Source of the DNA: Lentisphaeria bacterium
Lineage (GTDB): Bacteria > Verrucomicrobiota > Lentisphaeria > Victivallales > Victivallaceae
DNA: 59,907 nucleotides
Reading direction: 5' to 3'
Assembly (NCBI GenBank): GCA_017462015.1
Contig: JAFTRX010000082.1
Coordinates: forward strand, 1 to 59,907
Part shown: piece after piece, positions 1,376 to 59,752 of the stretch
Layout of the letters: each line of letters starts with the position of its first letter
Numbering within the stretch: position 1 is the first letter of the stretch
The notes under the pieces: generated by a model
Databases searched by the model: none
The model's input: only the letters and a program-made list of their open reading frames with translations
Told to the model about the DNA's origin: nothing
Translations under genes and position numbers: made by a program

Positions 1376-1463
1376 GGAGAAGGGAAAAACTTCTTTTCCC
1401 GTGAAAAGAAGTTTTTCCCTTCTCCCGAACCCTCATCCTTTTTCAAGAAAAGCGAAGTATTTT
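1376..1463 (-). repeat. R2 palindromic repeat, copy a
   Basis: A perfect 23-bp-stem hairpin lies at about 1378-1427 (arm GGAGAAGGGAAAAACTTC then TTTTC, loop CCGT). It is followed by the conserved tail 'ctttttcaagaaaagc'. The element is homologous to copies at 8,911, 33,733 and 59,686. It lies just upstream of the serine hydrolase gene, so it may sit in that gene's 5' leader. Confidence 0.8.
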
Positions 1464-8175: not shown

Positions 8176-9135
8176 TCAATGGTTGGTCGTGATCTCTTTG
8201 ATACTCGCCGCCGTGGGTGCGTTCCAGATGGCAACATAATTATAAGCACCGTAAATCAACGCATAGTTCCACGTTTCCGCATGTCCGTCAGCAAGCAGAT
8301 GGTTGGCGCCGCCGGGATGCGCTTTATCCGCACCGATGGACAAGCTGTTGGAGGTGGTGTACTGCAGCAGTCCGCGGGTGTTGCTGGCGTAGAGGGTCGG
8401 CTTGAAGCAAGTCCATTTTTCGGTAAAAAGCGTGCTCTTGGTAAGATAGTTGTTTTTGCTTGACCACTTCACCCAGTTCTTGCGGGAGTCAGTCCGGGTA
8501 TCGACCGTACCGTCACCGTTGAAGTAGCCGATACGGCTGTTTAAGGCGTAACTCACATACACGGTGTACGATCCCTGAAAGCTGGTACGCTTGGTATTCG
8601 CCGGACAATTCAGTACCTCCGGATCAAAATAGGTGTGCGCCGGACGTTTGAATTGAATATATTTCTGCAGACAGAACATCTCCTGCCACCAACCGTAACC
8701 GCCCTTGCCTTTATTGGCAGTTGCCGATGGAAGCACATCGTCATTGGCAGCTGAATAGGCAAGGACACCGGAGTAAAGCTGTTTGATATTATTGAGACAT
8801 CCGGTTCCCTGCCCGCGGCGGCGCGCACTCTGCAGCGCCGGAAGCAATATCGCAGCAAGGATTGCAATAATTGCAATAACGACAAGAAGTTCTATTAAAG
8901 TGAAAGGCTTTATGGGAGAGGGGAAAAACTTCTTTTCACGGGAAAAGAGGTTTTTCCCCTCTCCCAAACCCTCACCCTTTTTCAAGAAAAGCGGAGTATT
9001 TTGCACCTCCAGTTTGTCGCCGCGCTTGAAAAAATGCAGAGATGAGATAGAAGTATTCACGAGAAGTTCAATGAGAGTAAAGCGTACCGCTTTACTCCGG
9101 CAGCTGCCGGAATTTTCGGATTGCAGATTTTTCAT
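8176..9135 (-). CDS. Prepilin-like protein (H-X9-DG type) with duplicated prepilin motif and in-frame R2 insertion
   Basis: A 319-residue protein. The C-terminus has the [14 protein letters not shown] motif (H-X9-DG) typical of the DUF1559-type pseudopilin-like proteins expanded in PVC bacteria. The FTLIELLV motif occurs twice, at 9058-9081 and 8881-8904. They are 177 nt (59 codons) apart, and only the inner copy (Phe78) leads into the hydrophobic helix. The 59-residue insert includes an R2 hairpin repeat read in frame (peptide [13 protein letters not shown]). The mature protein would follow a 77-residue leader, far longer than the usual 5-20. The start has GGAGATTATT before the ATG. First gene of the operon with the two secreted hydrolases. 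Confidence 0.85.
8911..8998 (-). repeat. R2 palindromic repeat, copy b, inside a coding sequence
   Basis: A hairpin with a 24-bp stem and one mismatch (arm GGGAGAGGGGAAAAAC then TTCTTTTC, loop ACGG), followed by the R2 tail 'ctttttcaagaaaagc'. It is translated in frame in the prepilin-like gene, between the two FTLIELLV copies. Confidence 0.85.
9076..9110 (-). repeat. Tandem palindromes in prepilin leader (copy 1)
   Basis: AGTAAAGCG-TAC-CGCTTTACT (9076-9096) abuts CCGGCAGCTGCCGG (9097-9110). Both are perfect inverted repeats. They encode the leader residues just before the outer FTLIELLV. The arms differ from those in the other prepilin genes but still pair. Confidence 0.85.
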
Positions 9136-9187
9136 AATAATCTCCTTTTTTCTGTGAATCATCGTTAAATTTTATCAACACTGATTT

Positions 9188-13670: not shown

Positions 13671-14453
13671 ATGTTGCGTAAAAAATTCACCTTGATCGAA
13701 CTGTTGGTAGTTATTGCGATTATCGCGATATTGGCAGCAATTCTGCTGCCCGCTCTGCAGAGCGCGCGTGAACGCGGAAAATCCGGAAGCTGTATCAACA
13801 ACCTTAAACAGCTCGGCAGTGCGATGAACTTGTACGCCGAAGATCACAACGGCAATTTTGTCCTCGCGGCACCGGGACCGTTTTACGGCTATACCGGCAA
13901 TGAAGGCAATATCCGTTGGGCTTATCTCTTTGTGACCGGCAACTATATGCCCGGACGCCATACCTTCTTCTGCCCCGGAGCTCCGGCAACTGCCAACTCC
14001 GATCGCAGTATCCCCGGCGGAGCCTCCTGTTTTGCCACCGCCACTCCCCGCAGCGGCGCCGAAATGACTGCCAGTCAGTACATCTCCTACGGTTACAACT
14101 CCAACTGGTTGGGCGGTTACCACGGCGAAGAACCGGAAAGTTACGAATTCTGCCGCCGCACCTACAAAGTCGGCAAAGGCAAAAACTTCTCCAACAAGAT
14201 CATGTATGCTGATGCCTTTGACGGTGTTATCGCCAACGCCAACGAAGGAACCGTCCGCGGCTCCTGGAACATCGTCCGCAAGACCAGCGATTCCGGTTAT
14301 CAGCAGATCAACGACTGCCACCAGAGCTCTGCCAACGTCGCATTCCTGGATATGCACGTTGCCAACGTCAAAAATGCCAAGAAAGAGCTTCAGTTGGAAA
14401 CTTCCGGTACCACCAAGCAGAAAAAGTATTGGAACCCGCTTGCCAGCGAGTAA
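13671..14453 (+). CDS. Prepilin-like protein (DUF1559-like)
   Basis: A 260-residue protein with a short leader (MLRKK), FTLIELLV with Glu5 and a hydrophobic helix, then '[20 protein letters not shown]', the standard block of this PVC family. The C-terminal motif is degenerate: '[17 protein letters not shown]', with DM instead of DG. The start was chosen at the ATG preceded by GGAG; an in-frame ATG four codons earlier would place the ribosome site inside the gene. The leader lacks the paired palindromes seen in other copies. A strong terminator follows, then a GH71-like secreted enzyme gene, repeating the prepilin-plus-hydrolase pattern. Confidence 0.85.
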
Positions 14454-44226: not shown

Positions 44227-45012
44227 TTACATCTTGTTGATTGCCCGGTAAATCGGGAAGTTTTCGTAATGCGCCTTCTTCCACGGGCTGTAATAGTAGT
44301 CATCGTTGCTGTCGTTGCGGTTATAAGCCTCGACGTGACCATCGCCCATCAGACAGTTGCAGTTGAAGGAGGGATGGCGGAACGAAACGGCACACTGCGA
44401 ATGTCCGTAGATAAAACGGCCTTCATCATAAAGGGCACCGTTATAATTGTTATGATCGGCAAAGAGCAGCAGCCGCTGCGGTTTTCTGCACTTTTGCACA
44501 TCGTAACGCGGACGGCCGCCAAAAGACGGGTAATTAAGATTGACCAAATCCTGATTTTTCATCTCAACAAATGCCATCGTCACTCCGACATAACTGGTTG
44601 AATACATTGACTTGAACGCCTCATTTTCCGTTCCATCCGGGCAGGTGAACGGCGTATTAGTCATTATCATACGTCCCTGATTGGCATTCCAGTCGGTACC
44701 TTTGGGCAACTTTTTGTACGGACCGTACAATTTATTCAAGATAAACGGCACACCGGCTTTCAAACTGCTGCCGACCTTATTGCAGTCAAGCGGCATATTC
44801 TGATAATCCTGCAAATAGAGCTGAACATACTGACCTACCTGCTTTAAATTGCTGGTACAACTGGTCATCTGACCGCGCTTTCGCGCCTGCTGAACTGCGG
44901 GCAACAGTATCGCTGCAAGGATCGCAATGATGGCGATAACGACGAGAAGTTCGATAAGGGTGAAGCGTGCACGCTTCACCCGCCAGCTGGCGGGATGACT
45001 TGATTTTTTCAT
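44227..45012 (-). CDS. Prepilin-like protein (H-X9-DG type), palindromic leader
   Basis: A 261-residue protein. A 16-residue leader ([16 protein letters not shown]) precedes FTLIELLV with Glu5 and the hydrophobic helix, then '[20 protein letters not shown]'. The C-terminal motif is '[20 protein letters not shown]' (H-X9-DG-like). The residue before the cleavage site is Arg, not Gly. The leader codons form two palindromes (44959-44994). Third of three prepilin-like genes in a row; 33 bp downstream of the previous one, so it is probably in the same transcript. Confidence 0.87.
44959..44994 (-). repeat. Tandem palindromes in prepilin leader (copy 2)
   Basis: GTGAAGCGTGCACGCTTCAC (44960-44979) abuts CCCGCCAGCTGGCGGG (44979-44994), both perfect. 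Its sequence is identical to copy 3 although the flanking codons differ. Confidence 0.9.
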
Positions 45013-45045
45013 AACAACACTCTTTTTTATGATGACACTCTCAAA

Positions 45046-45855
45046 TTATTGAGCAGTAGTATTCTGCTCAACCGTATAAATTTTATCTGCAGACGGCGCC
45101 GCCCAGACATACAAACTCTTGTCGTACAACCGGATATAGTTGCGGGTTTCGGCACGGCCGTCCATAAACAACTGATTGGCACCGCCGGGATGCGCTTTAT
45201 CTCTGAAAATCGACTGACCGACATTGCTTTTCATCATAAAAAGCCAGGTCTCGCCGGTTTCATACTTCTTTCCGGTCTTCCATTTTTCACTCCACAACAA
45301 TGTATCTTTGACCGATACGTTGCGCTGACTGCTCTTTTTGTAGTACAAGGAGCTTCCCAACTGCAAATTTTTACTGCTCAAGTTCCATGCGCCCATGTAC
45401 CAGTTGTACGCGTAACTCAACACGATGCGGTAGTTACCATTATAACCGTATGCGTAACTCATTGAAGGACAGCGCAAAATCGGCACAGTACGAACACTTC
45501 CCTGCACAGTGGCTCCATAATACGCACTTCCGACGGTATACGCCACCTTCTTGTAGGTAATGAGGTACTCAAACCATCTCTGGGAACCGATTTTACCACT
45601 ACTCTTGAGAACAGTCGAATAGCTGTTAAGTATCCACTCGTCATTTTCCGACTGGTACTCCGTCCACGGCACATAGAGCTGTTTCAAATTGTTCAAACAA
45701 CCGGTACTCTGCCCGCGCCGCCGTGCCTGCTGCAACGCCGGAAGCAAAATAGCCGCAAGGATCGCGATAATGGCAATGACCACGAGTAATTCGATAAGGG
45801 TGAAGCGTGCACGCTTCACCCGCCAGCTGGCGGGAAAAATGGATTTATCACTCAT
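45046..45855 (-). CDS. Prepilin-like protein (H-X9-DG type), palindromic leader
   Basis: A 269-residue protein with a 17-residue leader ([17 protein letters not shown]) and FTLIELLV, then '[19 protein letters not shown]'. The C-terminal motif [19 protein letters not shown] is a clear H-X9-DG. The first in-frame ATG is too close to the AAGGA, so the next was taken as the start. Its own promoter and the terminator at 45,950 separate it from the gene before. It is followed by another prepilin-like gene, a small secreted protein and a DUF4838 protein. Confidence 0.87.
45799..45834 (-). repeat. Tandem palindromes in prepilin leader (copy 3)
   Basis: The same two perfect palindromes as copy 2, at 45800-45819 and 45819-45834. 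Confidence 0.9.
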
Positions 45856-45898
45856 TCTAATCATCCTTTATCACAAAAACAAACCGAACCCTGTCTAT

Positions 45899-45927
45899 AA
45901 AATAGCACATATCACACTGTTTGTCAA
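45899..45927 (-). promoter_or_regulatory. Predicted promoter of the prepilin-DUF4838 operon
   Basis: On the minus strand: perfect TTGACA (45922-45927), 17 bp, TATTTT (45899-45904), about 45 bp before the ATG. Confidence 0.55.
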
Positions 45928-45949
45928 GCAATACCGCAAAATTAGCCGC

Positions 45950-45983
45950 AAAAAAAGCTGCCGCAAGCTTCAGCTCCGACAGC
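45950..45983 (-). terminator. Rho-independent terminator of the 46003 prepilin-like gene
   Basis: GCTGTCGGAGCT pairs with AGCTTGCGGCAGC (one bulge and one G-U) at 45957-45983 on the minus strand, followed by seven T residues. It starts 20 bp after the stop codon. Confidence 0.8.
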
Positions 45984-46002
45984 AGTTCTGCGATCCGGCG
46001 TG

Positions 46003-46842
46003 TTACCACATAAGTTCTTTAAGTTCTTTATCCCGCCGCCACGATACCGGCAGATAACGATTGGCGGTACCGCTGGCAACACCATAGAAAAATCTCTGTC
46101 CGTTGGCATGTCCGTCGGCAAACGCCATGTTGGTATTCACTCCATGCGCACCATTGGTTCCGGTGCTGGTTCCGGCGGACGGGCCGATCCACGAAAACGC
46201 CTGCGCATTACCTTTGTTATTATCGCCGTCAGTGTTGTAAGCGCCGCGCGCGGTCTGCGCCGCACCGGGATTCACCCAGTCATCGCAAAGCAGCAGCGCC
46301 TTGGACGCATTGTTGATCTGGCTCATCTTCACCAGTGACGTGCTCGGCGTTGCCAAACTTCCGATATTGGTCCGCGGATTGAAGAAAAAGTTGTACGCAT
46401 AACAGTTTCTTATGACAAATATATTGTAACGGATGCCTTTATTTTTCGCCCGTGCAGTCGGGCACTCCAAAAGCGGAGTTCTGAAGCCGGCAGTCTTATT
46501 ATTGTACATGCGCGCTTCTGTTTTGAGACTGCCGCCCCAATACGGATCTTTACTGGCATTTTCCGACCAGCTCTTGGAAAGATTGGGGTCTGCCGGCCAC
46601 CCTCTGCCATTCAAGACACTCGGATAAAGCTGGTCATCAAAGTCGTTGCTGTACTGCGCCCACTTCTGCGCAAACTGCTTGGTGTTGTTGAGACAGCTGT
46701 TGGCCTGCCCCCGCGCCCGCGCACTCTGCAGCGCCGGAAGCAGTATCGCCGCCAGAATGGCGATGATGGCAATGACCACGAGAAGTTCTATAAGAGTGAA
46801 GCGGGTACGCTTCACTCCACCATGGTGGAGTTTTTTGTTCAT
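46003..46842 (-). CDS. Prepilin-like protein (H-X9-DG type), palindromic leader
   Basis: A 279-residue protein: leader [14 protein letters not shown], then FTLIELLV with Glu5, the hydrophobic helix and '[20 protein letters not shown]'. The C-terminal '[18 protein letters not shown]' is the H-X9-DG motif. Arg replaces Gly at -1. AAGGAT precedes the ATG. It is a single-gene transcript with its own promoter (perfect TATAAT) and terminator, divergent from the second ceramidase-like gene. Its palindromes use different sequence from copies 2 and 3. Confidence 0.87.
46796..46830 (-). repeat. Tandem palindromes in prepilin leader (copy 4)
   Basis: GTGAAGCG-GGTA-CGCTTCAC (46796-46815) overlaps by one base the perfect palindrome CTCCACCATGGTGGAG (46815-46830). 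Confidence 0.9.
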
Positions 46843-59468: not shown

Positions 59469-59679
59469 GCTGAGAAATAAACTTGGATCAGCCATCTTAT
59501 AAACAAAAGAAGCAAAACACTGCCGCAACAGATTATTTTCTGTGAATAACGGCAAGGTCACGTTGAAAAAAATGTAAAGCAATGCTATGTTTCATGCATT
59601 CAGATCAGCTTGAAAGTCGGTTGGTCAGCAGGCAACTTTAACTGGAACGCTGTGTTCCCAATAAGGGGAGATTGCGCAG
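59469..59679. other. Gene-free stretch
   Basis: No open frame with a ribosome site, RNA gene or repeat was recognised here. The 529-bp end of the window otherwise holds the operon promoter, R2d and an edge fragment. Confidence 0.5.
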
Positions 59680-59752
59680 GAGGAGGGAAAAACTTCTTTT
59701 CACGGGAAAAGAGGTTTTTCTCTTCCACCGCACCCTCATCCCTTTTCAAGAT
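59680..59752 (-). repeat. R2 palindromic repeat, copy d (degenerate)
   Basis: 'ggaaaaacttcttttcacgg', 'gaaaagaggtttttctcttc' and the tail 'ccctcatcccttttcaaga'. The outer stem has mismatches, unlike copies a-c. Confidence 0.7.

Follow-up and report, generated by a model that had tools for sequence, protein, structure and literature searches.

Palindromic DNA inside translated genes has been described in Rickettsia and in the mitochondria of Nematomorpha. According to the relevant parts of one source (PMC10969869), Rickettsia palindromic elements (RPEs) measure ~150 bp, fall into ten sequence families and lie in reading frames in nearly half of the cases; a passage of another reports that the identity of their repeat arms is lost over time (PMC6649704). 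The same passage presents the coding palindromes of nematomorph mitochondria as perfect, with few imperfect cases, and as gained and lost, which it tentatively ascribes to template switching or repeat conversion. Arm homogenisation together with spacer inversion is treated, in the section concerned of PMC8604942, as a signature of polymerase template switching. Here we report double palindromes in the leaders of prepilin-like genes of a Lentisphaeria bacterium (assembly GCA_017462015.1). The window, that is, the whole stretch of DNA analysed, is contig JAFTRX010000082.1 with 59,907 nucleotides, one of the 131 contigs of a 2.81 Mb genome. On balance we lean, with modest confidence, towards palindromic DNA leader cassettes that would be copied between prepilin paralogues via their FTLIELL codons, kept perfect by template switching and tolerated in a leader that is cut off.

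The elements of Rickettsia and Nematomorpha are the closest kinds, and the prepilin leader set works like these, being as tested a member of neither. A preliminary description of this DNA had drawn the parallel with RPEs, which is supported in that the palindrome is translated within the gene. In both cases palindromic DNA lies in translated genes, often in frame, and is tolerated by the protein, as far as the RPE sources go (PMC10969869, PMC6649704); here, in-frame palindromic inserts occur at 72 sites with two FTLIELL copies, one of which (L203) contains a stop. However, RPEs as characterised in those sources have a conserved peptide and unrelated host genes, whereas we observed one site in one gene family, with prepilin leaders accounting for 7/7 places of the commonest inner arm in the genome of the window and for 61/66 occurrences of one exact version. 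The double palindromes of the window genes (type B) have neither a common stem sequence nor a common peptide, and their arms stay matched.

The likeness to Nematomorpha consists of perfect inverted repeats in coding DNA that are gained and lost (PMC6649704). Theirs, in the same passage (PMC6649704), reach 284 bp, are scattered and encode conserved protein with both arms, whereas ours are short and double, are placed at one leader site of a bacterial multigene family and have conserved codons as one arm. Template-switch mutations likewise combine arm homogenisation with spacer inversion, but the part of the source concerned deals with scattered mutations in yeast genes (PMC8604942), in contrast to the upkeep of a whole palindrome set at homologous sites. 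Both perfect arms and inverted spacers were found among relatives of the window genes, with only two inverted loops longer than 2 bases. No description of these prepilin-leader palindromes was found in open-licence literature among the matches listed, and "Lentisphaer..." and "prepilin" co-occur there in only 3 papers, with a single mention of each per paper.

Double palindromes in the leaders of four window genes

The four prepilin-like genes lie on the minus strand at 44227..45012, 45046..45864, 46003..46842 and 8176..9162 (hereafter 44964, 45804, 46800 and 9081, respectively). All score above the cut-off for the TIGR02532 prepilin domain; the last, scanned from 9120, also exceeds the cut-off for H-X9-DG and has a doubled FTLIELLV. 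In each leader an outer palindrome overlaps an inner one, whose 3' arm is formed by the Phe-Thr codons together with the beginning of the Leu codon. Genes 44964 and 45804 have the same pair, in which the last 3 bases of the outer palindrome CCCGCCAGCTGGCGGG (16 bp, perfect; 44979..44994 and 45819..45834) are common to the inner palindrome GGGTGAAGCGTGCACGCTTCACCC (24 bp, perfect; 44958..44981 and 45798..45821). The outer palindrome of 46800, ACTCCACCATGGTGGAGT (18 bp, perfect; 46814..46831), overlaps by 4 bases with the inner GAGTGAAGCG-TACC-CGCTTCACTC (arms 10, loop 4; 46794..46817), whose loop is inverted in an orthologue (L155 3209). For 9081, a 2-base overlap joins the outer TCCGGCAGCTGCCGGA (16 bp, perfect; 9096..9111) to the inner GAGTAAAGCG-GTA-CGCTTTACTC (arms 10, loop 3; 9075..9097), which is a GTAAA/TTTAC version. 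All eight palindromes are read on the minus strand.

The preliminary description had placed two perfect or near-perfect, abutting palindromes directly before FTLIELLV in these genes, with an inner 3' arm coding for the cleavage site. The palindromes proved real and exceed chance in shuffles and control windows, and the arm is indeed made of the cleavage-site codons. They are adjacent, but instead of merely abutting they share 2 to 4 bases. Because of this overlap, the outer and inner hairpins cannot both form fully; in the predicted RNA folds of 44964 and 45804 the inner hairpin is kept and the outer one shortened. The RNA fold z-scores of the four window leaders are -4.2, -3.7, -4.2 and -3.7, with 0, 1, 1 and 0 of 200 shuffles folding equally well.

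In the whole genome, the prepilin N-terminal motif PF07963 gave 75 matches at E <=0.1 and 68 at 0.001. A perfect arm of at least 10 bases, counting palindromes of every kind, is present in 26 of the 64 prepilin leader windows of this genome, compared with 18 of the 4000 72-nt windows taken at random and with 1 of the 432 starts of other genes. On the other hand, 33/64 leader windows are without a perfect arm of at least 8 bases, and the leader of the prepilin gene at 13686 (plus strand) has no palindrome.

The general layout within the translated leader can be written as (X)-P-X'-Q-X. Here X stands for the TTYAC(Y) codons of the gene itself, with a 5' copy that is often shortened, X' is the reverse complement of X, and P and Q, each nearly self-complementary, vary freely in sequence. 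The centres of the outer and inner palindromes are 17 nt apart in 20/30 leaders. Type-B stems have no common sequence beyond the surroundings of the FTL codons, so that mainly the layout and the matching of arms are kept. A second palindrome pair, GGCAGCAATNNTGCTGCC followed by CGCTCTGCAGAGCG, was observed within the coding region of several prepilin genes of the same genome (window 13733..13764; L050 6658; L077 4876; others) and may represent either family codon usage or more of the same phenomenon. This second kind is included in a count of 47 prepilin-labelled cases among 169 double palindromes.

Arm matching, specificity and turnover

Covariation was measured in 29 leaders. Of 37 leaders with an inner score of at least 7, the 26 that have the common spacing were taken, and three window genes were added; 9081, with another spacing, is outside this set, and the percentage of pairing is raised by the selection. 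Changes on both sides amounted to 67 cells in the inner stem and 81 in the outer stem, against shuffled means of 25.7 and 25.5, and 0/500 shuffles were as high in either case. A one-base slide of the partner abolishes the signal of both stems. Neither the number of pairs with any both-side change nor that of further pair types rose above the shuffles in the same leaders. The wobble pairs in the covariation counts lie mostly at the centre or the outer end, past the end of many stems.

Codon content was considered independently at 190 sites fetched regardless of pairing. At 33 of them a 6-base arm pairs perfectly with the FTL codons, while codons dealt among the genes gave 6.8 on average and 14 at most in 1000 deals. 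In synonymous resampling of 30 leaders, the observed arm was reached in 0.65% of draws on average and in 4.5% at most. The matched changes in both arms noted in the preliminary description are thus present in a larger alignment, above the shuffles, and codon bias alone is insufficient to account for them. Loci fetched by palindrome-like patterns (L001-L008, L147-L153 and L160-L244), together with those from L245 onward, were left out of the 190-site and spacing counts. One of the counts that omitted these loci also lacked the window genes, whose duplicates had been retained under other locus identifiers. The pattern-fetched loci were kept in the counts of orthologue pairs, inverted loops, insert right ends and second FTL copies; a count of 103/330 versus 31.4 contains them and is not used as evidence.

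Departures from Watson-Crick pairing are few, with 25 among the 1299 pairs of 124 distinct leader stems (8 A-G, 6 G-T, 5 A-C and 6 others). This count includes leader hairpins besides type B, skips stems of more than 16 pairs (the longer repeat A, see below) and omits the inner arms of pattern-fetched loci. When stems with the same arms and different loops were grouped, 6 of the 15 sets contained exact reverse-complement loops; the 4-base ones are TACC/GGTA, found between 46800 and its orthologue, and CCGT/ACGG in repeat A.

The commonest inner arm was searched as GTGAAGC-N0-12-GCTTCAC. Its 7 places in the genome of the window are all at FTL codons, and a search for the same palindromes outside prepilin genes found 0/7 in this genome and few places in other carriers. 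Among the relatives, compared with one genome per species, the pattern occurs at 178 places in 23/34 genus genomes; its reversed control has 2 places, both in the genome of the window. In the class, 56/197 genomes have at least one place, which outside the carriers is mostly a single one. Altogether 57 places were read, with regions picked by us among the matches listed (all 9 places of genome G123 and part of the others). FTL codons follow in 18/22 places in the genus, 14/14 in a second genus of the same family, 8/9 in one genome of another family and 0/12 elsewhere in the class. Of the four genus places away from FTL codons, one is a tandem copy, another is close to a contig end and two lie elsewhere. 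As a side observation, 8 palindromes are at FTL codons in G123 (L290-L298), which belongs to another family of the order, and its genus mate G124 has none; such a patchy presence may reflect transfer or independent origin.

An exact 20-mer, GTGAAGCTGTACAGCTTCAC, was found in 63 stretches of a species collection in which records near the genome of the window may be missing, and 62 of these belong to Lentisphaerae. Of its 66 occurrences, 61 end in FTL codons. Among the other five, two are tandem copies, one is a leader that repeat A interrupts, one is at a contig end, and one, in Pontibacillus, resembles a terminator. The relatives with the same sequence are Lentisphaerae or Lentisphaeria metagenome assemblies, and many titles name gut samples (sheep colon, yak colon, roe deer caecum).

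Turnover was assessed in 10 orthologue pairs with bodies at least 75% alike and a palindrome in at least one member. Two pairs, involving window genes, show compensated changes and one a loop inversion; in two, only one member has a palindrome; in one, the palindromes of the two members differ; in another, a tandem pair of copies contrasts with a single copy; two pairs have different cassettes, and one is alike. Copying is also apparent within the window. The bodies of 44964 and 45804 have no blastn similarity (E 1e-3), yet the two genes do not differ at all between the outer palindrome and the FTLIE codons, both included, whereas their orthologues in genome G003 (bodies 94% and 79% alike, respectively) share another palindrome, with a single base of difference between these two orthologues. 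A leader shared by the two window genes, with orthologues sharing a different one, amounts to local copying between paralogues.

Inserts provide further evidence of turnover. At the 72 sites with a second FTL downstream, an insert lies between two FTLIELL copies and nearly always keeps an open frame. In our reading, inserts of the same multi-copy kind resemble one another from the Val codon that follows FTLIELL onward, and the host codons before it differ. At the right ends, the transition from cassette to host codons falls at varying points of FTLIELL, which suggests that homologous recombination or template switching took place within this stretch, and not cutting at a single site. An orthologous site is without the insert in L018 and with it in L176, and in L237 and L240 the insertion lies behind a leader that was already palindromic. 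Type-B units also occur in tandem, with a unit of 31 or 34 nt.

Proposed mechanism and competing explanations

Under our interpretation, recombination or template switching, with the conserved FTLIELL DNA as anchor, would carry leaders from one to another of the numerous prepilin paralogues. Replication template switching between the arms would re-match the palindrome and sometimes flip its loop or duplicate a unit, and such re-matching would generate covariation without selection for an RNA. Cells may tolerate the palindromes because prepilin peptidase would remove the leader, so that mainly the frame and the lack of stops matter; a match to the peptidase was found in 32/34 genus genomes, including one in the genome of the window. 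The palindromes are thus most plausibly regarded as DNA that maintains itself at a protected site and may be parasitic. A more far-reaching version, which we offer tentatively and regard as rather doubtful, describes DNA elements inherited by symmetry and not by sequence. They would use conserved codons of the host as one arm, have the complementary arm and two free palindromes built by template switching, and spread through the prepilin family, with the mirror layout being nearly all that distant copies share.

The genomic background is possibly permissive for palindromes through scarcity of SbcD, which exceeded the cut-off in 9/34 genus genomes, not including that of the window, which has no match, and in 8/14 controls (12/34 versus 12/14 at E 1e-10). 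The palindrome is present in 4/9 genomes with SbcD versus 19/25 without it (p = 0.11, with phylogeny uncorrected and genomes incomplete).

Covariation is commonly taken as proof of selected RNA structure, whereas here the matched changes appear DNA-templated, which makes the palindrome set a test case for separating DNA templating from RNA selection. With the site, the frame and some palindrome-free alleles known, the persistence of palindromes as self-maintaining DNA within genes can also be tested directly. Moreover, the set suggests a route by which repeats may come to land in frame in a cleaved leader of gut Lentisphaerota.

Several points weigh against the cassette interpretation. Template switching is deduced from the sequences, and by itself it does not account for the association of type B with prepilin leaders instead of intergenic DNA. 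The comparison of G-U with A-C pairs rests on 11 cells pooled over several hairpin kinds, and four of the six sets with inverted loops have 2-base loops, for which chance is high. The fairly constant spacing of the outer and inner palindromes could mean functional constraint or only descent. Leader cleavage at these genes is assumed, and in many leaders Phe is preceded by Arg, His, Pro or Cys and often not by Gly, in crude classes. Finally, the stop codon of L203 lies within the insert, and in L199 a stop follows soon after FTL.

Among the alternatives, an RNA-level explanation, in which two mutually exclusive early stems of the mRNA slow or gate prepilin translation and selection on the RNA keeps the pairing, seems improbable to us. 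Covarying base pairs, as in a structured RNA, were found in both the inner and outer stems, and the stable predicted folds, the competition between overlapping stems, the fairly constant spacing and the location at the start of the membrane segment would all suit such a switch. However, G-U should be more tolerated than A-C if RNA pairing were selected, and 6 G-T versus 5 A-C show no excess on these few cells. Also against it are the half of the leader windows without a substantial arm (the 33/64 above) and the gain, loss or replacement of the palindrome between orthologues, while the inverted loops point to DNA. A search of the window against Rfam gave no match at gathering score. The preliminary description had proposed that structure and not the peptide is selected, possibly as an RNA control element; as stated, the selection of structure over peptide is not supported. 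Given the lack of a G-U excess on small numbers, the loop inversions, the tandem units and the presence, absence or replacement between orthologues, the pattern looks more like DNA templating, and an RNA switch is less likely than DNA cassettes.

We likewise assign a low probability to a dedicated site-specific system that inserts leader cassettes by recognising folded single-stranded DNA, as integrons do with attC. The structure of integron attC sites is conserved while their sequence varies, and the prepilin leaders resemble them in repeated insertion at one site beside a folded, sequence-variable palindrome. The start of several cassette kinds at the Val codon after FTLIELL, their end with FTLIELL and the insertions behind already palindromic leaders in L237 and L240 would agree with this mode of insertion. 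In contrast to integrons, the inserts are in frame within genes, their right junctions differ within FTLIELL, and no integron integrase exceeded the cut-off in any of the 34 genus genomes, in a search that did not extend to other recombinases; weaker matches occur in 33/34 of them and also in 13/14 controls. Neither the arms nor the loop lengths are fixed, and for this reason a recombination site of fixed sequence, one form of a further suggestion in the preliminary description, is unlikely as well.

Still less probable is a DNA-binding or hairpin-processing protein that needs the double palindrome, with the DNA structure itself under selection. The near-constant spacing and the almost exclusively Watson-Crick arms would be expected of such a target, but sequence is conserved around the codons only, many prepilin genes have no palindrome, and its presence varies between orthologues. 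We consider it very unlikely that the palindromes are repeats akin to repetitive extragenic palindromic (REP) sequences moved by a Y1 transposase (REP-associated tyrosine transposase, RAYT, or IS200-IS605). Short paired hairpins and the dispersal of repeat A within and outside prepilin genes recall REP sequences and miniature inverted-repeat transposable elements. However, no Y1 match was found in the genome of the window, type-B stems have no common sequence and are hardly found away from prepilin leaders, and the single Y1 matches in 9/34 genomes show no association with the palindrome (Fisher p = 1.0). Accordingly, the Y1/RAYT transposase was rejected as the mover. Chance or codon bias, by which conserved FTL codons could bring about recurring complementary Val-Lys codons, is rejected by the codon-dealing and synonymous-resampling results and has a negligible probability.

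Other leader kinds and repeat A

The palindromic leaders read in the genome of the window and its relatives fall into four kinds (B, A, D and E), and other prepilin genes are without any. Kind B is the double palindrome described above for the window genes. Kind A is a longer palindromic repeat present within and outside prepilin genes. In 9081 it precedes the second FTLIELLV at 8904: a 51-codon in-frame insert (8905..9057) separates the FTLIELLV copy that starts at 9081 from the one that starts at 8904, and repeat A lies towards the right end of this insert. The search query was repeat A plus the beginning of the second FTL (8895..8985), and two more copies lie away from any prepilin gene at 1376..1446 and 59679..59749, all of them on the minus strand. 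The search of the genome returned 71 rows, in which many places appear once for each strand, and 40/72 candidates were scored. Kind E is an insert that encodes KRSHLCCDRVYG... and ends in a type-B palindrome. Unlike type-B stems, insert types E and A each share a recognisable sequence.

Several prepilin leaders are only a few hundred bases or less from contig ends (G000, G001, G008). Since repeats may break these assemblies, the true number of palindrome copies may be higher than counted. In L143 (9881-10056) and L182 (7642-7802), two copies of one palindrome are separated by runs of N, as if assembly or masking had failed at repeated units.

Kind D consists of small hairpins in rows. Their stems are unlike one another, GCTTCAY follows each hairpin, and the last stem of a row pairs with the FTLIE codons. 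Ten arrays were read; in seven the FTL codons are 17 bases further on, and in L105 and L130 the listed stretch stops before FTL. As a genome-wide motif, a hairpin followed by GCTTCA showed no enrichment (20/652, compared with 5/379 to 29/652 for six other motifs). The array of L051 (11960-12028) ends in another hairpin, away from prepilin genes. In the arrays of L021, L022, L139, L140, L229, L314 and L315, the last stem changes along with the FTLIE codons, with TCAATCAGCG/CGCTGATTGA in some and TCGATCAGCG/CGCTGATCGA in others.

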